The notes below the pieces were generated by a model. The model made no database searches. It was given only the letters and a program-made list of their open reading frames with translations, and was not told the origin of the DNA. DNA of 34,764 nt, taken from the NCBI GenBank assembly GCA_013821605.1, contig JACDGP010000053.1, positions 1 to 34,764 of the forward strand, written 5' to 3'. Every line of letters starts with the position of its first letter. Positions within the stretch are counted from its first letter, which is position 1. Made by a program: the position numbers and the translations under genes. This document shows positions 3,500-21,649 of the stretch, in pieces. The stretch comes from Herpetosiphonaceae bacterium. GTDB lineage: Bacteria > Chloroflexota > Chloroflexia > Chloroflexales > Kallotenuaceae.

Positions 3500-3527
3500 T
3501 TGACTCGTGATGCTATGATAGTATTAC
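3500..3527 (+). promoter_or_regulatory. candidate sigma70-type promoter for secreted propeller gene 1
   Basis: TTGACT (3500-3505) and TATTAC (3522-3527) are 16 nt apart. An overlapping extended -10, TGCTATGAT (3511-3519), also occurs upstream of the paralogue at 13788. Transcription from here would give a leader of about 185 nt. That leader includes an imperfect hairpin at 3566-3594 and the conserved hairpin at 3676-3697. Confidence 0.45.
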
Positions 3528-3675
3528 CGTCCGTATTATTTGCCCACTACGTAATCGCCCGCAAGCCGGATACTGGTAGTCCTGCTGTGTCCGGACGGGA
3601 TTTCGTAAGGAGGTCGTTTCAGGGCTGAGGAATGTGCTCACAATCATCGCGCTGTCCGCCCTTGGTGCTCGCTTC

Positions 3676-3697
3676 TATCAGGCGACCGCGCCTGGTA
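3676..3697 (+). promoter_or_regulatory. conserved leader hairpin, copy 1
   Basis: A 22-nt inverted repeat, TATCAGGCG-ACCG-CGCCTGGTA, ends exactly 20 nt before the ATG of the secreted protein. The paralogous gene carries TATCAGGCA-ATGC-TGCCTGATA at the identical distance. The innermost arm pair changes from A-T to G-C on both sides while pairing is kept, and the third pair is a G-U wobble here. It could be an RNA stem or a dyad operator. Confidence 0.6.
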
Positions 3698-3717
3698 CCT
3701 TGAAAGGGAACATCTTC

Positions 3718-5313
3718 ATGTATCGCTTTCGGCTGTCTCCAGTTGTGTCTCTGGTCGGTGTTTTAGCGCTTGGTATGCTTCCCAATGTCGCTACCGCGAG
3801 CGTGCCGGTCCAATCATCCGGTACCACACGTGAAGTCCAATCCGCCGTTCATCCATACGTCTCACCGCCCCTCCGCAGCTTGGCTGCCGCTGCCGCTCCA
3901 GGCGCTACCCAGCCCCGCGTTCACCCACTGCTTCCTATTCCGCAGGCGGGTGCTACCGCAGAGCAGAGCGATGGGGCGCTCCAAACGTCCGCAGGTCCGC
4001 GTGTCGGGACGACTGCCGGCCTGAACTTCGCCGGCCTTGGTCAGGGTGATTATGGTTTTTCAGTCCAGGGTGCACCTCCGGACACTAATGGTGCTGTTGG
4101 TGCAACACAGTATGTCCAGTGGGTCAACACGAGCTTCGCCATCTTTAACAAGAGCACGGGAGCATTGATCCTCGGTCCGATCGCCGGGAATGCGCTTTGG
4201 GCAGGTGCCCACACGGGTGATGGCTGTGCTGCGAACAACGATGGCGATCCTATCGCCCAGTATGATAAGGCCGCCAATCGCTGGATCCTGACCCAGTTCT
4301 CGGTGTCGAGCACTCCCTACCTCCAGTGCGTCGCCGTCTCGCTGACCAGCGATGCTACGGGCAGCTACTATCTGTACGACTTCACAATGCCCAACTTCAA
4401 CGACTACCCCAAATTCAGTGTGTGGCCGGATGGATACTACAGCACCTACAATATGTTTAACCCTTCCGGCACGAGCTTCTTGGGTGCCCGCGTGTGTGCG
4501 ATGCAAAGCAGTGCGATGCGGGTTGGCGCAAGTGCCACAAGCATATGTTTCCAGTTTAACAACACCGTCTTTGGATTGCTTACCTCCGATCTGGATGGCA
4601 CAACCCCACCGCCGGCCGGCGCTCCTAATTACGTCATGAACATTGGGAGCAACGCGCTCAATCTGTATAAGTTCCATGTGGACTACACGACGCCGTCCAA
4701 CAGCACCCTTACCGGCCCAACCAACATTCCGGTCGCAGCCTTCACCGAGGCCTGCGGTACCGGTGGCACCTGTATTCCGCAACCGAACACTACGACGAAA
4801 CTCGACTCACTAGGTGACCGGCTCATGTACCGGCTGGCCTATCGCAACTTCGGCAACCATGAAGCGTTGGTGCTTAACCACAGCGTCAAAACGACGAGGT
4901 CGGTTGGCGTGCGCTGGTACGAAGTACGTAGCCCGGGCAGTACACCGACCGTCTTCCAGCAGGGGACCTACGCGCCCAGTTCAGTGCGGCGCTGGATGGG
5001 CAGCATCGCGATGGATAAGGTCGGGGACATCGCCGTGGGGTACAGTGCATCCAGTTCAACTCTTCATCCAAGCATCCGCTATACGGGCCGCGTTCCCACA
5101 GATCCGCTTGGTACCTTACAAGGCGAGGCAACGATCAAGGCAGGGGTCGGCTCGCAGACGGGTGGGTTGAGTCGCTGGGGCGATTACACGGCCATGACGG
5201 TCGATCCCGTCGACGATTGCACCTTCTGGTATACCAACGAGTACCTGAAAACCTCGGGGTCCTTCAACTGGAGTACGCAAATTGCGTCCTTCAAGTTCCC
5301 CGGCTGCCACTAG
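3718..5313 (+). CDS. secreted beta-propeller-like protein, copy 1
   Basis: A 531-residue exported protein. ATG 3718 is preferred over in-frame upstream codons because the paralogue at 13859 starts at the same aligned position with the same spacing to a GAAAGGGAA ribosome site and to the leader hairpin. Residues 1-26 form a Sec signal peptide (MYRFRLSPVVSLVGVLALGM, then ATAS). A Pro/Ala/Ser-rich linker follows to about residue 95. The globular part contains PPDTNGAVGATQYVQWVN, FNKSTGALILGP, DPIAQYDKAANRWILTQF, VWPDGYYSTYNMF and, near the end, SRWGDYTAMTVDP. These repeated aromatic strand motifs are consistent with a beta-propeller or sialidase-like fold. Function is unknown. It is probably extracellular, with Cys pairs that could form disulfides. 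A strong terminator follows, so it is monocistronic. Confidence 0.85.
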   Translation: MYRFRLSPVVSLVGVLALGMLPNVATASVPVQSSGTTREVQSAVHPYVSPPLRSLAAAAAPGATQPRVHPLLPIPQAGATAEQSDGALQTSAGPRVGTTAGLNFAGLGQGDYGFSVQGAPPDTNGAVGATQYVQWVNTSFAIFNKSTGALILGPIAGNALWAGAHTGDGCAANNDGDPIAQYDKAANRWILTQFSVSSTPYLQCVAVSLTSDATGSYYLYDFTMPNFNDYPKFSVWPDGYYSTYNMFNPSGTSFLGARVCAMQSSAMRVGASATSICFQFNNTVFGLLTSDLDGTTPPPAGAPNYVMNIGSNALNLYKFHVDYTTPSNSTLTGPTNIPVAAFTEACGTGGTCIPQPNTTTKLDSLGDRLMYRLAYRNFGNHEALVLNHSVKTTRSVGVRWYEVRSPGSTPTVFQQGTYAPSSVRRWMGSIAMDKVGDIAVGYSASSSTLHPSIRYTGRVPTDPLGTLQGEATIKAGVGSQTGGLSRWGDYTAMTVDPVDDCTFWYTNEYLKTSGSFNWSTQIASFKFPGCH

Positions 5314-5340
5314 CAACGAGTCCGCTCCATAGACAGGTAG

Positions 5341-5374
5341 GATGCCCCGGCCAGCAATGGCCGGGGCATCTTTA
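5341..5374 (+). terminator. Rho-independent terminator after secreted protein 1
   Basis: Perfect 12-bp arms GATGCCCCGGCC and GGCCGGGGCATC around the loop AGCAAT, followed by TTTAATT. The stem closely resembles the terminator of the paralogous unit at 15515-15550. Confidence 0.9.
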
Positions 5375-8455: not shown

Positions 8456-8581
8456 AGAGGCTCCTCGTAGGGCCGTGGCAAGCGGCGCGACTGTCGGTGA
8501 GTTGAGCCGCAGTAGTATAGCTTAATCGGGTGAACGGATGCAGATAGCGAATAATACTCCATTTAGGATGGGAGATCTGTG

Positions 8582-9316
8582 ATGACCTTCAAGGTGCTTA
8601 GTTATAACATCCTCCTGGGAGGCGAAGATCGTCTGCAGCGGATCGCAGATATTATCCGGCGGGAGGAGCCTGACGCAGTGGCCTTGCTTGAGGCGAATGA
8701 TCGAGCTAACGTGACGACGTTGGCACACGATCTTGGGATGCAGCTTGTGTTTGGTGAAGCGAATACCGAATTCCATATTGCTTGGCTGAGTCGACTGCCG
8801 ATTCACCGATGGGAAAACCACCGGCTTGCTGCCCTCAGTAAGACGCTTCTCGAGATAGAGGTGAGGTGGGCAGGTCTGCCGGTGGGCCTCTTCGCCACCC
8901 ACTTGGGGTCACGACACGATCGGTTCCGGCCAGAAGACGAGGTGCCAGTTATTCTCGACGTGCTCCGTTCGCTCGCTGACGCGCCTCATCTGTTGGTCGG
9001 CGATTTCAATGCACTCCATCCAAACGATGCTGTCGGTACGCCGCCCAATGGCCAGGAAAAACGTGGAGAAGCGAACGAGGGTGTTCCACGCAAGGCGATC
9101 CAACTGATGCTCGAAGCTGGATATGTGGACTGTTATCACATGCTGCATCCACGGCAGCCTGGCTATACCTATCCGTCACATGCGCCATGGTTGCGGCTTG
9201 ATTATGTGTTTGCATCGTCACGGCTAGCACGGCATTTAACGGCATGCGACTCCATCACGGGAACAGCAGCGGAAAAGGCATCCGATCACTGCCCGGTCTG
9301 GGTCGCGTTCTCGTAG
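8582..9316 (+). CDS. endonuclease/exonuclease/phosphatase (EEP) family protein
   Basis: A 244-residue protein of the DNase I/EEP superfamily, a metal-dependent phosphodiesterase fold. Conserved residues are all present: N9 (LSYNILLGG), E37 (ALLEAND), D141 and N143 (LVGDFNALH), and the D235-H236 pair (SDHCPV) at the C-terminus. There is no signal peptide, so it should be cytoplasmic. Members include DNA repair nucleases, sphingomyelinases and nucleotide or phosphoinositide phosphatases, and the substrate cannot be chosen from sequence. ATG 8582 follows GGGAG; a GTG three bases earlier is also possible. It is divergent from the methyltransferase across a 126-nt gap. Confidence 0.9.
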   Translation: MTFKVLSYNILLGGEDRLQRIADIIRREEPDAVALLEANDRANVTTLAHDLGMQLVFGEANTEFHIAWLSRLPIHRWENHRLAALSKTLLEIEVRWAGLPVGLFATHLGSRHDRFRPEDEVPVILDVLRSLADAPHLLVGDFNALHPNDAVGTPPNGQEKRGEANEGVPRKAIQLMLEAGYVDCYHMLHPRQPGYTYPSHAPWLRLDYVFASSRLARHLTACDSITGTAAEKASDHCPVWVAFS

Positions 9317-13787: not shown

Positions 13788-13796
13788 TGCTATGAT
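13788..13796 (+). promoter_or_regulatory. extended -10 promoter element of secreted protein 2
   Basis: TGCTATGAT fits an extended -10 (TGnTATAAT) 63 nt before the start codon. No good -35 is present. The same nonamer occurs at 3511-3519 before the paralogue. Confidence 0.45.
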
Positions 13797-13816
13797 GGTC
13801 CTACGGCGCTCGCTGG

Positions 13817-13838
13817 TATCAGGCAATGCTGCCTGATA
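13817..13838 (+). promoter_or_regulatory. conserved leader hairpin, copy 2
   Basis: A perfect 9-bp inverted repeat, TATCAGGCA-ATGC-TGCCTGATA, ends 20 nt before ATG 13859, exactly as in copy 1 at 3676-3697. The 20 nt between hairpin and start are also related (GGAAGGAAAGATCTTC against GAAAGGGAACATCTTC). Confidence 0.65.
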
Positions 13839-13858
13839 AATTGGAAGGAAAGATCTTC

Positions 13859-15457
13859 ATGAATCGCTTCCGGTTGTCTCCGGTCGTATCCCTGGTCGGT
13901 GTTTTAGCGCTTGGTATGATCCCCAATCTCGCAACGGCAAGTGTGCCAGTCCAATCATCCGGTACCACCATTGAAGTCCAAGGTGCCGTCCATCACGACG
14001 TTTCGCCACCCCTGCGGAGCATGCACGCCGTGAGCACAGCCAGCGTTGGACAGCCCAGCGTTCGTCCGCTGCTTATCCCACCGAGGAGTACCGCCAAGGA
14101 GCAGAGCGATTCGGTCGCTCAAACGTCCGCAGGCCCCAGCGTAGGGGCGACGATTGGCCTGAACTTCCCTGGCGTTGGTCAAGGCGATTATGGCTTTAGG
14201 GACCAGTACGCACCTCCAGACACCAACGGTGCCGTCGGTGCGACACAGTATGTCCAGTGGGTCAACGTTGACTTGGCCGTCTTCAATAAGAGCAACGGCG
14301 CATTACTGCTTGGTCCGGTTGCCGGCAATACGATCTGGACCGGCTTTGGTGGTCCCTGTGAGCGCAACAATGATGGTGATCCGATTGCCCAGTACGACAA
14401 AGCCGCCAATCGCTGGGTGCTCACGCAGTTCGTTGTGTCGGGTGCGCCGCCCTTCCTGCAGTGCGTGGCGGTCTCCCAAACCAGCGATGCAACCGGTAGC
14501 TATAACCGCTACTCCTTCAACCAGCCCGGCTTCAACGACTATCCCAAGCTCAGCGTGTGGCCGGATGGCTACTACATCACCTACAACATATTCAACAACA
14601 GCGGCACCGCCTTCATAGGGGGACGTGTGTGTGCGATGGATCGCAGCGCGATGCTGGCGGGCACTGCAGCGACACAGCAGTGTCAGCAGTTGAGTTCGAA
14701 CTACAGCGGTCTGCTCCCCTCCGATCTCGATGGCAAGACCCCGCCACCAGGTGGATCGCCCAATTACGTGATGGACTTGGATACCAACAATAGTTCACTT
14801 AATCTGTGGAAGTTCCATGTGGACTTCGCGACGCCGGCCAACACCACCTTTACGGGTCCGACCAATATTCCGGTTCCCGCCTTCACCCCGGCCTGTGACG
14901 GTACGTCTCGCAACACGTGTATTCCGCAAAAGGGCACGACACAACAACTCGAATCCCTGGGTGACCGGCTAATGTACCGGCTGGCCTACCGCAACTTCGG
15001 TGACCACGAAGCGCTGGTGCTTAACCACTCCATCCAGTCGGGCAGGTCGGTTGGCGTGCGCTGGTACGAAGTGCGCAGCCCCAGCGCGCCGGTAGTCTTC
15101 CAGCAGGGCACCTATGCACCCAACGGGGCGCACCGCTGGATGGGTAGTATTGCGATGGATAAGGTCGGTGACATCGCCGTCGGCTATAGCGTCTCGAGTA
15201 GGCTTACCTATCCGAGCATCCGTTATACGGGCCGTGTCCCCACGGATGCACTTGGCACCTTGGAAGGTGAGGCGACGATCAAGGCAGGCAGCGGTTCGCA
15301 AAATGGCGGACTAGCACGCTGGGGCGATTACAGCGCTATGACCGTTGATCCCGTTGATGATTGCACCTTCTGGTATACCAACGAGTACCTGAAAACCACA
15401 GGGTCCTTCAACTGGAGCACGGAGATTGCGTCCTTCAAGTTCCCAAGTTGTCACTAG
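13859..15457 (+). CDS. secreted beta-propeller-like protein, copy 2
   Basis: A 532-residue close paralogue of the protein at 3718-5313, with the same signal peptide (MNRFRLSPVVSLVGVLALGM, then ATAS), the same Pro/Ser-rich linker and the same core motifs in order: PPDTNGAVGATQYVQWVN, DPIAQYDKAANRWVLTQF, FNDYPKLSVWPDGYYITYN, GDRLMYRLAYRNFGDHEAL, YEVRSPSAP and ARWGDYSAMTVDPVDDCTF. The differences are concentrated in the linker and in a loop around CDGTSRNTC. It is presumably extracellular, with several Cys residues placed as in copy 1. The leader hairpin, ribosome site and terminator are also duplicated, so a whole transcription unit was copied. The molecular function is unknown. Confidence 0.85.
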   Translation: MNRFRLSPVVSLVGVLALGMIPNLATASVPVQSSGTTIEVQGAVHHDVSPPLRSMHAVSTASVGQPSVRPLLIPPRSTAKEQSDSVAQTSAGPSVGATIGLNFPGVGQGDYGFRDQYAPPDTNGAVGATQYVQWVNVDLAVFNKSNGALLLGPVAGNTIWTGFGGPCERNNDGDPIAQYDKAANRWVLTQFVVSGAPPFLQCVAVSQTSDATGSYNRYSFNQPGFNDYPKLSVWPDGYYITYNIFNNSGTAFIGGRVCAMDRSAMLAGTAATQQCQQLSSNYSGLLPSDLDGKTPPPGGSPNYVMDLDTNNSSLNLWKFHVDFATPANTTFTGPTNIPVPAFTPACDGTSRNTCIPQKGTTQQLESLGDRLMYRLAYRNFGDHEALVLNHSIQSGRSVGVRWYEVRSPSAPVVFQQGTYAPNGAHRWMGSIAMDKVGDIAVGYSVSSRLTYPSIRYTGRVPTDALGTLEGEATIKAGSGSQNGGLARWGDYSAMTVDPVDDCTFWYTNEYLKTTGSFNWSTEIASFKFPSCH

Positions 15458-15514
15458 CGACAAACGTGCGTACTTGGCTTAGACCGGGCGCATAGTGTGG
15501 TAGAACAGGGTAGG

Positions 15515-15550
15515 AAGGAGGCCCCGACCATTGCTGGTCGGGGCCTCCTT
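15515..15550. terminator. bidirectional hairpin terminator
   Basis: Perfect 16-bp arms, AAGGAGGCCCCGACCA and its complement, enclose the loop TTGC. It lies between the convergent secreted protein 2 and the small membrane protein gene and can serve both. Its core CCCCG.CCA...TGG.CGGGG matches the terminator at 5341. Confidence 0.88.
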
Positions 15551-15585
15551 TGATGACTCTAAATGGAAGCAGCTATGCGTGTTGC

Positions 15586-18167: not shown

Positions 18168-19511
18168 CTATGGTGCGATCGCGTTAACAAATTTAGCCGC
18201 GTTGATCGTACCAAGACCGCTTGCTAGGTCATAGCCACGGCCAGCCGTGTAGCCGGTGACGGTTACGGGGTTGCCGTTGGCATCCGTGAAGCTGAACGAG
18301 TTATTCCCGCGCGTCACATCCACAATGCCTGAGCCCGAGTTCTTGGCAAGCCTGTACAGTTGGTCGTTGATCAGGCCAAGCGAATGACCGGCCTTTTGGG
18401 CCGCAATCGACACAATGCCGGCGAACAGCGGTGTCGCCACACTGGTCCCGCCGAAGACGTAATATCCCGCCTGACCGGGCAGGAAGGAAAAGTAGACCAA
18501 CACCCCGCCATCAACGGCGGCACTCATGCTGATGTCCGGTACGCCCCGTTGTGGACCAACCACGTTTTCGACGCTGTCTTGAAAGCCGGGCCGTTCGAAC
18601 ACCGACGAGAGGCCACCGCCGGTCGCGCCGAAGTCGTTCCACACCTCGTCAGGTGCCAACCGATTACCTCTTGAGCCGAGCGTCAGATGCGTGCCGCCGA
18701 CCGCAGTCACCAACGGATCCGTCGCAGGCCACGCGGTGACCCGCGTCGGATAGCAGCAGGTGCCATCAAGGAATGCGTCGGTTGCGCCATCATCACCCGT
18801 AGCACCAAGCACAGTGACCTCATGGAGGCTCGCATTCTCAAAAGCGCTACGCAAATGACGGAGCGCATCAGGACTTGGGAACGTTTCTTCAGTGGCAGCG
18901 AAGCTCTGCGAGATGACGTCGCCCAACTTGTTGTTGATGACGTAATTCTCCGCTTGCACAATCTCCGGGAAGCCCGTGACGCCTTCGGTCTCGGCGACCG
19001 GCGTCTCGACCAGCAGAATATTCGCACCGGGCGCCATCACATGCGCCCACTCAACATCAAGCGTTGTCTCCTCCGCCCAGCCGGCCATCGTGGGGTCATT
19101 CGGATCGAAGGGCGGGACCGCTCCGGCGGGCTGAATAATCTTGAGTGAAGGCGGATCGGCCAAACCGAATGCCCGATCAAACTTATGCAAATCTTGCTGG
19201 ATCGTCGGTGAGCCAAAAGAATCAACGATCACAATCGTACGTCCTGTCCCGTTCAAACCTTGCGAGTACAGTGGTGCAAGATTATAGGCTTGTTGTAATT
19301 GGAACGGTTGGTAGCAGGCGATGCCGAACTGCGCCTCGCAATCGGCGGTAGTGGGTGGGGCGGCGGTCTGCTTCATGGGCTTGGAGATATGACCGGTGAC
19401 GGCCGGACGGGGTGCAACACGGGCAGACACCGTGCGTGCAGATACAACTCCGAAACTACAGAGGGCCAACACAGTCAGCAGGCTCAACAAGGCGGGCATT
19501 CGTCGGTGCAT
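18168..19511 (-). CDS. secreted S53 family serine-carboxyl peptidase (sedolisin)
   Basis: A 447-residue exported endopeptidase. The signal peptide is residues 1-25 (MHRRMPALLSLLTVLALCSF, then GVVSA). The sedolisin catalytic set is complete: E148 and D152 (EETTLDVEW, the ExxxD pair), D240 in GATGDDG (oxyanion Asp), and S357 in FGGTSVATP. The C-terminal calcium site is represented by IVDVTRGNN and GYDLASGLGTIN. S53 enzymes work at acidic pH outside the cell and are usually made with a ~150-200 residue inhibitory prodomain. Here only about 40 residues separate the signal peptide from the start of the catalytic domain, so that prodomain is absent. AAGGAGCC precedes ATG 19511. A promoter-leader of ~140 nt lies upstream. 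Confidence 0.93.
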   Translation of the reverse strand: MHRRMPALLSLLTVLALCSFGVVSARTVSARVAPRPAVTGHISKPMKQTAAPPTTADCEAQFGIACYQPFQLQQAYNLAPLYSQGLNGTGRTIVIVDSFGSPTIQQDLHKFDRAFGLADPPSLKIIQPAGAVPPFDPNDPTMAGWAEETTLDVEWAHVMAPGANILLVETPVAETEGVTGFPEIVQAENYVINNKLGDVISQSFAATEETFPSPDALRHLRSAFENASLHEVTVLGATGDDGATDAFLDGTCCYPTRVTAWPATDPLVTAVGGTHLTLGSRGNRLAPDEVWNDFGATGGGLSSVFERPGFQDSVENVVGPQRGVPDISMSAAVDGGVLVYFSFLPGQAGYYVFGGTSVATPLFAGIVSIAAQKAGHSLGLINDQLYRLAKNSGSGIVDVTRGNNSFSFTDANGNPVTVTGYTAGRGYDLASGLGTINAAKFVNAIAP

Positions 19512-19784: not shown

Positions 19785-20360
19785 ATGATCGCCATAGCAC
19801 TTTTATTTCTGTCGTTGGGCTTCGATACCCTGGCAGTTGCGGTTGGGCTGGGGGTAGGAGGCCTGCCACGGGAGCGCTGGCTACGGGTGGGCGTGACCTT
19901 TGCGTGTTTTGAGGGCGCGATGCCGGCGGTCGGTTTGCTACTGGGGCAGGGCCTAACCCAAGTGCTGGGCGATTGGGCAAGCTATGCAGCGGCCGTGATT
20001 CTGATCATCGTAGGTGTCCTGGCAATCAAAGAGGCGCTGGAAGATGACCACGATGAGCAGGAGCAGCACGCAGCGGTCCTCAGCAGAACGAGTGGGCGGT
20101 CCTTATTGCTGACAGGATTAGCTGTGAGTCTGGATGAGCTCGCGGTCGGCTTTGGGCTGGGTGTGCTCCGAGTGCCGGTCGGCTTGGCGTTAGGCTACAT
20201 TGCCGTTCAAGCCTTTGCGATCACGTTTATCGGTTTAGCTGCCGGTCAGCGGATTGGCGAGCGCCTGGGCAGCCGGGCTGAGCTGATCTCCGGCGTGGTG
20301 CTCACATTGTTGGGTAGCATGCTGCTTCTGAGTCAGGCTACCGGTCTTCGCTTCTTATAG
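19785..20360 (+). CDS. mntP: MntP-like manganese efflux pump
   Basis: A 191-residue inner-membrane protein with six predicted helices arranged as two repeats, as in MntP (DUF204), which exports Mn2+. The paired acidic motifs are visible: LSLGFDTLAVAVGLGVGG near residues 7-24 and AVSLDELAVGFGLGV near 114-128, each with the conserved Asp. A His/Glu-rich cytoplasmic loop (EDDHDEQEQH) separates the halves. GAGGAGCACGGGG precedes ATG 19785. MntP genes are often controlled by a yybP-ykoY Mn riboswitch. I do not see one in the upstream gap, which holds the divergent peptidase promoter. The last 28 nt overlap the end of the convergent ROK regulator gene. Confidence 0.85.
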   Translation: MIAIALLFLSLGFDTLAVAVGLGVGGLPRERWLRVGVTFACFEGAMPAVGLLLGQGLTQVLGDWASYAAAVILIIVGVLAIKEALEDDHDEQEQHAAVLSRTSGRSLLLTGLAVSLDELAVGFGLGVLRVPVGLALGYIAVQAFAITFIGLAAGQRIGERLGSRAELISGVVLTLLGSMLLLSQATGLRFL

Positions 20361-21649
20361 GACGGCTGGCCATTGCTGGCGACGAGACTGGGGACGTCGG
20401 GCATGGTGGCAGGGCTCGTGGCTGCTTGTGGCTCTTGACGCTTGATCAGCCGCACCAATCCCAGCTCGTTGGTCAACAAGAGCGCGGCGGCACCCAGCAG
20501 GACCGTATCATCACCTTGCGTCAAAATCTCGATCTCGGCCGCCTGGGCTAACTCCGGCAGAACCCGCTGCGCGACCTCTTGTTGAATAGCACGACAGAGC
20601 AGATCACCAAACGGTGCAATCCGTCCCGTAATAACGATGCGCTGGATGCTCAAGATCGCAACGAGGTTGGCAACCGCAATCGCGAGGTATTGCCCGATCT
20701 CCACGATGATCTGTTGAACGCCTGCATCACCCGCCACACAAGCCTGCACAACAGTGTCGAGGGTTATCGCTTGTGGCGTAGCGGCAAGTTGGTGCAGCAG
20801 TGAAGCAGGCTCACGCGTAGCGAGTTCCTGGGCACGGCGCACAATCGCCGGAATATTCGCTATGGCCTCCAGGCAACCAAAGTTACCGCACTTGCACTGC
20901 GGACCATGCTTATCGACCACCACATGACCGATCTCGCCCGTCCCAAATCCCTCGGTTTGGAATAGCTTGCCATTCAGCACAATACCGGCACCAATACCCC
21001 GTCCCACCTTGATCGCCACTAAACTGTGAGTATCCTCCTTGCGACCGAACATATACTCGGCCAGCGCCACCATGTGGCTATCATTGCCAAGGTAGACCGG
21101 CAGGTTATAGCGCGCTTGCACCATCGTGCGCAGTGGCAGATCATGCCAATTAAAGTTGACCGCCCGTCGCACCGTGCCGCTCCCGGTATCGATCACACCG
21201 GGCGAGCTAATGCCGATGCCGAGCACAGGCCGGTCGGCGACACTCATCAAGCTATCGATCAATGGAAAGAGGAGTGCCAGAGCACGCTCACTATCTTGCA
21301 CACCCAATGGTAACTGGGCCTGACGCCAGATGGCACCGCGTAGATTGACGAGCGCTCCCTTGATTTCGCTGTGAGTAATATCGATGGCGATGATGTGACG
21401 CGCATCATCCACCACACTTAACAGTGTGGGCGTGCGTCCCACACCCACCTGTCCTTGACCAACTTCTTCGACCAAACCCTGCACGATTAACTCACCGACC
21501 ACCTCGGAAATGGTTGTGCGCGTCAGTCCAGTCAGACGTGCGAGCTCAGCACGGCTTACCGTAATCGCGTCATAGATCGTCCGCAGCACCAAGCGATGGT
21601 TGTGCTCTTTAGTATGCTGCCGCGTCGCCTTTTCGAGCAAAATGGTCAT
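20333..21649 (-). CDS. ROK family transcriptional repressor
   Basis: A 438-residue NagC/XylR-type regulator. A winged helix-turn-helix is at residues 20-65 (SRAELARLTGLTRTTISEVV). The ROK sugar-binding half follows, with LGNDSHMVALAEY (D190 at the sugar-contacting position), GRGIGAGIVLNGKLFQTEGF, and the zinc motif H242 plus CKCGNFGCLE (C252, C254, C259). It very probably senses a sugar or sugar phosphate and represses the divergent ABC importer operon. It has its own promoter over which an AGTT...AACT dyad is placed for possible autoregulation. The first ATG is at 21649. The stop overlaps the end of the mntP-like gene. Confidence 0.92.
   Translation of the reverse strand: MTILLEKATRQHTKEHNHRLVLRTIYDAITVSRAELARLTGLTRTTISEVVGELIVQGLVEEVGQGQVGVGRTPTLLSVVDDARHIIAIDITHSEIKGALVNLRGAIWRQAQLPLGVQDSERALALLFPLIDSLMSVADRPVLGIGISSPGVIDTGSGTVRRAVNFNWHDLPLRTMVQARYNLPVYLGNDSHMVALAEYMFGRKEDTHSLVAIKVGRGIGAGIVLNGKLFQTEGFGTGEIGHVVVDKHGPQCKCGNFGCLEAIANIPAIVRRAQELATREPASLLHQLAATPQAITLDTVVQACVAGDAGVQQIIVEIGQYLAIAVANLVAILSIQRIVITGRIAPFGDLLCRAIQQEVAQRVLPELAQAAEIEILTQGDDTVLLGAAALLLTNELGLVRLIKRQEPQAATSPATMPDVPSLVASNGQPSYKKRRPVA

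Follow-up and report, generated by a model that had tools for sequence, protein, structure and literature searches.

In the window, by which we mean the whole 34,764-nucleotide stretch of DNA that was analyzed, two paralogous genes for secreted proteins of a Chloroflexales-like bacterium each carry a 9-pair hairpin that ends exactly 20 nt before the ATG (Table 1), and the explanation that we prefer, with confidence that reaches the halfway mark and goes no further, is that this hairpin is a lineage-specific 5′-UTR stem-loop, kept by selection and affecting translation or mRNA stability. The element reads TATCAGGCG-ACCG-CGCCTGGTA in copy 1 and TATCAGGCA-ATGC-TGCCTGATA in copy 2, and both are described by the joint pattern TATCAGGC[G/A]-N4-[C/T]GCCTG[G/A]TA. 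Three stem positions differ between the copies and pairing is kept in all three cases, one of the exchanges being compensatory: copy 1 has G-C as its innermost (ninth) pair and T-G as its third, where copy 2 has A-T and T-A. The 4-nt loops differ at three of their four positions. A sequence-only reading had already proposed the coordinates of the two hairpins, their 20-nt spacing to the ATG, the switch of the innermost pair and the different loops, and all of this is borne out by the two sequences and, for position and spacing, by a pattern search. In both copies the stem is separated from the Shine-Dalgarno-like site by a gap of 5 to 6 nt. In the predicted ensembles the pairs of the hairpin have probabilities between 0.3 and 1.0, varying with the stretch that was folded, and the copy 1 hairpin on its own is weakly better than its shuffles (3/60; 0.1 in a second test). 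There is no run of T directly 3′ of either stem, as an intrinsic terminator or attenuator would have, and terminator scans of both sites were empty. The hairpin of copy 2 includes an ATG in its inner stem and loop (13826-13828) that is in frame with the gene, has no counterpart in copy 1 and lacks a good Shine-Dalgarno site.

Table 1. Coordinates of the two genes, their leaders and flanks in the window, and of the structured leader found in Ktedonobacteria
Feature	Position	Strand	Description
Gene copy 1	3718-5313	+	531 aa, signal peptide, secreted beta-propeller family
Gene copy 2	13859-15457	+	532 aa, 75% identical to copy 1
Leader hairpin, copy 1	3676-3697	+	9 pairs, one T-G; loop ACCG (sequence, pattern search, fold)
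Leader hairpin, copy 2	13817-13838	+	9 Watson-Crick pairs; loop ATGC (sequence, pattern search, fold)
Shine-Dalgarno-like AAAGGGA, copy 1	3703-3709	+	starts 6 nt past the stem (sequence)
Shine-Dalgarno-like AAGGA, copy 2	13845-13849	+	starts 7 nt past the stem (sequence)
Conserved leader block, copy 1 (-54 to -1)	3664-3717	+	alignment; alifold z -4.4
Conserved leader block, copy 2 (-54 to -1)	13805-13858	+	alignment; alifold z -4.4
Possible second helix around Shine-Dalgarno site and ATG, copy 1	3700-3732	+	TTGAAAG (3700-3706)/CTTTCGG (3726-3732) (fold)
Possible second helix, copy 2	13841-13873	+	TTGGAAG (13841-13847)/CTTCCGG (13867-13873) (fold)
Putative extended -10-like TGCTATGAT, copy 2	13788-13796	+	sequence, inference
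Same -10-like word, upstream of copy 1	3511-3519	+	about 157 nt before the copy 1 hairpin
Terminator-like hairpin after copy 1	5339-5372	+	loop GCAA
Terminator-like hairpin after copy 2	15514-15551	+	loop TTGC
Ktedonobacteria leader instances (this and the next two rows; loci L203, L200, L161, L199, L212, L215)	G214:C210:3498-3591 and 8494-8589
Ktedonobacteria leader instances	G343:C204:4890-4989; G337:C366:10440-10535; G142:C1:1938913-1939009
Ktedonobacteria leader instances	G293:C646:4992-5089; G343:C21:7451-7562	-

Given that a very recent duplication could by itself account for a shared hairpin, as the sequence-only reading had pointed out, the age of the gene pair matters. The two copies have diverged at synonymous sites to a dS of 0.88 (NG86) or 1.12 (YN00), and 97 of the 221 fourfold sites have changed (44%). 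Judged by this divergence the duplication is old, recent copying is ruled out as the source of the similarity, and it does not explain the shared hairpin. The remark that little else was conserved upstream turned out to be inexact, since over the entire leader (-54 to -1) the two copies can be aligned without a single gap and are 74% identical (40/54, ungapped comparison), with 15 of 18 positions identical in the stem and 25 of 36 in the remainder, while 5′ of -54 nothing aligns and identity is at the random level. The leader has thus changed less than the fourfold sites (14/54 sites versus 97/221, p=0.02), and the same comparison for the stem gives 3/18 sites (p=0.026). If three neutral differences are placed in the stem, all pairs of both copies survive in about 3 to 4% of simulations. 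RNAalifold folding of the two leaders (-54 to -1) scored z=-4.4 against column shuffles, whereas 31 control windows inside the genes ranged from -2.05 to 1.2. A single pair of sequences underlies all of these tests, and the feature was picked because it looked paired, so that we read them as support and not as proof; moreover, the two hairpins are non-independent evidence, because both descend from one duplicated leader. Taken together, the sequence comparisons suggest that both the leader and its stem are under selection, a claim that is supported but not proven. Folding also joined TTGRAAG at the Shine-Dalgarno site with CTTYCGG in codons 3 to 5, where an A-T pair in copy 1 is G-C in copy 2 (TTT/TTC, synonymous); this second helix appears in the folds, but alone it is not significant (z -0.28) and we do not count it as a supported structure.

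A full σ70 or other standard promoter consensus was not found at either gene copy. An extended -10-like word lies about 20 nt 5′ of the copy 2 hairpin, as against 157 nt in copy 1, and from its position the copy 2 RNA would begin around 13803, on the border of the conserved block. Conservation between the copies begins at this putative transcript start and is absent from the promoter region. A 13-nt similarity, ATGCTATGATRGT, was considered as a promoter common to both copies and was rejected as not significant. Under our preferred explanation, the 9-pair stem-loop would sit in the 5′ untranslated leader, a few bases 5′ of the Shine-Dalgarno site; the ancestral gene would already have had it in its leader, and it would have been copied along with the gene in the old duplication, after which selection would have kept both the pairing and the distance to the ribosome site. 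Most likely it would control how fast ribosomes load, how long the mRNA lasts or both, as a structured standby site or a protective 5′ stem. We infer that the stem is part of the transcript, folds in the cell and acts in this manner. Structured leaders 5′ of the Shine-Dalgarno site can change translation over 100-fold (PMC3936740), and 5′ stem-loops can protect mRNAs, while a stem very near the Shine-Dalgarno site lowered stability in the ermC example (PMC7509114).

When up to 3 mismatches are allowed, the pattern occurs twice in the window (0.15 expected), and within the 5.88-Mb genome the exact pattern occurs at these two sites only, near-matches lying inside open reading frames. The leader used as a DNA query retrieved no further copy from the genome, and with two sites and no further leader copy a genome-wide operator or repeat family is ruled out. 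Among the matches listed for the other Chloroflexota genomes sampled, none is exact, and the phylum-wide search with up to 3 mismatches gave, outside the own genome and among the matches listed, scattered hits with 2 to 3 mismatches; viral contigs yielded no relatives. As a control, we used 212 genes of the own genome (both paralogues included), called by a simple, purpose-written gene predictor. About 13% of them have leader hairpins that beat their shuffles at 0.05, which makes a hairpin before the ribosome site a common feature in this genome. A 9-pair uninterrupted stem at this position is rare in the genome: uninterrupted stems scoring at least 8.5 and ending between -31 and -9 were found in 2 of the 210 other sampled genes.

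The same picture of a narrowly confined element emerges from the homologues. The genomes sampled included few from the family of the own genome and none of the same genus, and they provided 128 distinct homologous leaders, about 126 of them from outside the pair. None of these roughly 126 leaders, among them those of two further intact paralogues in the own genome, has the TATCAGGC stem. The search of related genomes that the sequence-only reading had proposed as a check therefore went partly against it: there is no wider covariation, and pairing is kept only within the gene pair. Of its proposal that selection acts on an RNA stem or on a dyad operator, there remain the slower divergence of leader and stem, the kept pairs and the alifold score, with RNA favored over operator. 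Hairpins before the Shine-Dalgarno site as such are no trait of the whole protein family, since their rates are at background level: in Chloroflexota, 16% of the family's leaders have one, compared with control-gene rates of 13% in the own genome, 14% in Ktedonobacteria and 7% in other Chloroflexota, and in other phyla the family stands at 7.5% against 11.5% for controls.

The rival that survives best, and one that deserves serious attention though we still consider it unlikely, is that the stem is a functionless relic, a chance hairpin of the ancestral leader whose arms were kept complementary by inverted-repeat repair or replication template switching. Template switching is a source of perfect stems and compensatory changes and also preserves them (PMC8794818), and covariation within a duplicated pair can stem from it as well as from selection. 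A likely footprint of it is found at these very genes, whose terminator-like hairpins share the same stem core with one G-C/A-T switch while the loop of one (GCAA) is the reverse complement of the other's (TTGC); this inversion looks like a template-switching event. The frequency of hairpins near start codons in this genome and the lack of the stem sequence in all homologues outside the pair would suit a relic too. However, the leader hairpin shows no such loop inversion between the copies, and the slower change of the whole leader relative to fourfold sites argues for some constraint.

Somewhat less probable again is that the palindrome works as DNA, as a dyad operator just past the transcription start that is bound by a dimeric protein repressing or activating both genes. 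The 22-bp dyad is near-perfect, with one non-Watson-Crick pair in copy 1 and none in copy 2, its 5′ half-site is identical at 8 of 9 positions between the copies, and a dyad-binding site would likewise keep symmetrical changes; the window also encodes a ROK-family regulator (20333-21649), about 5 kb from copy 2. Yet there are but two sites in 5.88 Mb, neither of them near the ROK gene, and no exact match appeared among those listed for the other Chloroflexota genomes searched. The conservation spans the region from the start codon to the putative transcription start rather than surrounding the promoter, and the spacing that is kept is the one to the ATG, which an operator would not need. It is this constant distance, together with conservation from the putative start onward, variable loops and kept pairing, that leads us to favor an mRNA stem over an operator. 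Finally, that the leader is coding sequence read from an earlier start, with -54 to -1 encoding an N-terminal extension (GAR[FW]YQA..P..L.G.IF), is very improbable: copy 1 can be read without a stop from GTG 3634 onward, and the two translations agree at more than half of their 18 residues, but in copy 2 the frame is interrupted by a TGA at 13793 and its first start codon would be the ATG at 13826, within its own hairpin and missing in copy 1, while the changes are spread 2/5/7 over the codon positions and the Shine-Dalgarno site and signal peptide match the downstream ATG.

The proteins encoded by the pair belong to a large family of secreted beta-propellers with hundreds of members in many bacterial phyla, among them Acidobacteria, Chloroflexota and Proteobacteria, for which there is no Pfam or NCBIfam model; searches of Pfam, NCBIfam and PDB sequences gave no match. 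An AlphaFold model of copy 2 (pLDDT 86.6) has weak fold neighbors among sialidase, GH43 and WD40 propellers. Besides the pair and the two further intact paralogues mentioned above, the genome holds one remnant of a family member (locus L018, G000:C38:14954-15304, minus strand), made up of the last 117 residues with one TAG. A subtilase-like secreted peptidase is encoded in the window at 18168-19511 on the minus strand, about 2.7 kb from copy 2, and in a Ktedonobacteria genome a sedolisin-like protein (L203 3601-4816) lies 5 kb from a propeller homologue. A functional link between the propeller family and secreted serine peptidases is possible.

The comparison of homologous leaders had a by-product, a different and stronger structure. 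In one Ktedonobacteria family (f43, whose overlapping public contigs are labeled Ktedonobacterales), seven leaders of about 95 nt directly before the start codon have the form GCCAGG-[P2]-CCTGGG-[P3]-GGAGG, an architecture of P1 (CCAGG/CCTGG), P2 and P3 followed by the Shine-Dalgarno site. They precede genes for four propeller-family members, two secreted proteins that we take to be sedolisin-like from their sequences (no Pfam match) and a third secreted protein. Across the seven sequences, 93.6% of the cells pair and 12 pairs have changed on both sides (5.5 in shuffles), counts that lean towards structure because the alignment was fitted to it; sliding the partners destroys the covariation signal. 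P1 never varies and so has no covariation support. Model searches added two of the instances, G142:C1:1938913 and the one on G343:C21, with E values of 7.5e-8 and 0.003. The leader has no Rfam match, no convincing instance was found outside the family, and in the window's genome model R1 gave no match up to E=10 and none among the matches listed for L014-L017. By these alignments, it is a covarying, Rfam-negative structured RNA that is independent of the window's hairpin, a small but well-supported finding. Genes of the propeller family can thus carry structured leaders in this position, which we count in favor of an mRNA role of the window's hairpin. It is tempting to speculate that this family repeatedly gains such leaders, that the window's hairpin is the Chloroflexales version and that both belong to an undescribed RNA-based control of export, or of the secretome, in Chloroflexota, but we consider this a long shot. 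The Ktedonobacteria leader, which precedes genes of three secreted-protein families in an uncultivated bacterial family, would be a new regulatory RNA candidate with a searchable ligand or partner, and in this respect it outweighs the window's hairpin, which adds one more leader hairpin, supported by two sequences.

The sequence-only reading knew of no described element of this form. At the sequence level this stands, the window having no Rfam match above the gathering cut-off (4227 families), while a hairpin shortly before the Shine-Dalgarno site is a common kind of structure: the kind of element is ordinary, and the feature itself is lineage-specific. Among known systems, structured ribosome standby sites (PMC3936740) likewise have a hairpin directly 5′ of the Shine-Dalgarno site and a short single-stranded gap, whereas the window's hairpin is kept in one gene pair only. 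The protective 5′ stem-loops of Escherichia coli ompA and of recA/vacA (PMC7509114) resemble it in being stable leader stems 5′ of the Shine-Dalgarno site and in preceding the gene of an exported product; in the window, the stem is very near that site (5 to 6 nt) and the 5′ end is putative. With the dyad operators of dimeric regulators it has in common a near-perfect 22-bp palindrome 5′ of the gene, but its sites number two per genome and are fixed to the ATG rather than to the promoter. The Ktedonobacteria leader (models R1 and R2) is, like the window's hairpin, a structured leader directly before the Shine-Dalgarno site of genes of the same protein family, and it differs from it in sequence and in its P1-P2-P3 architecture.
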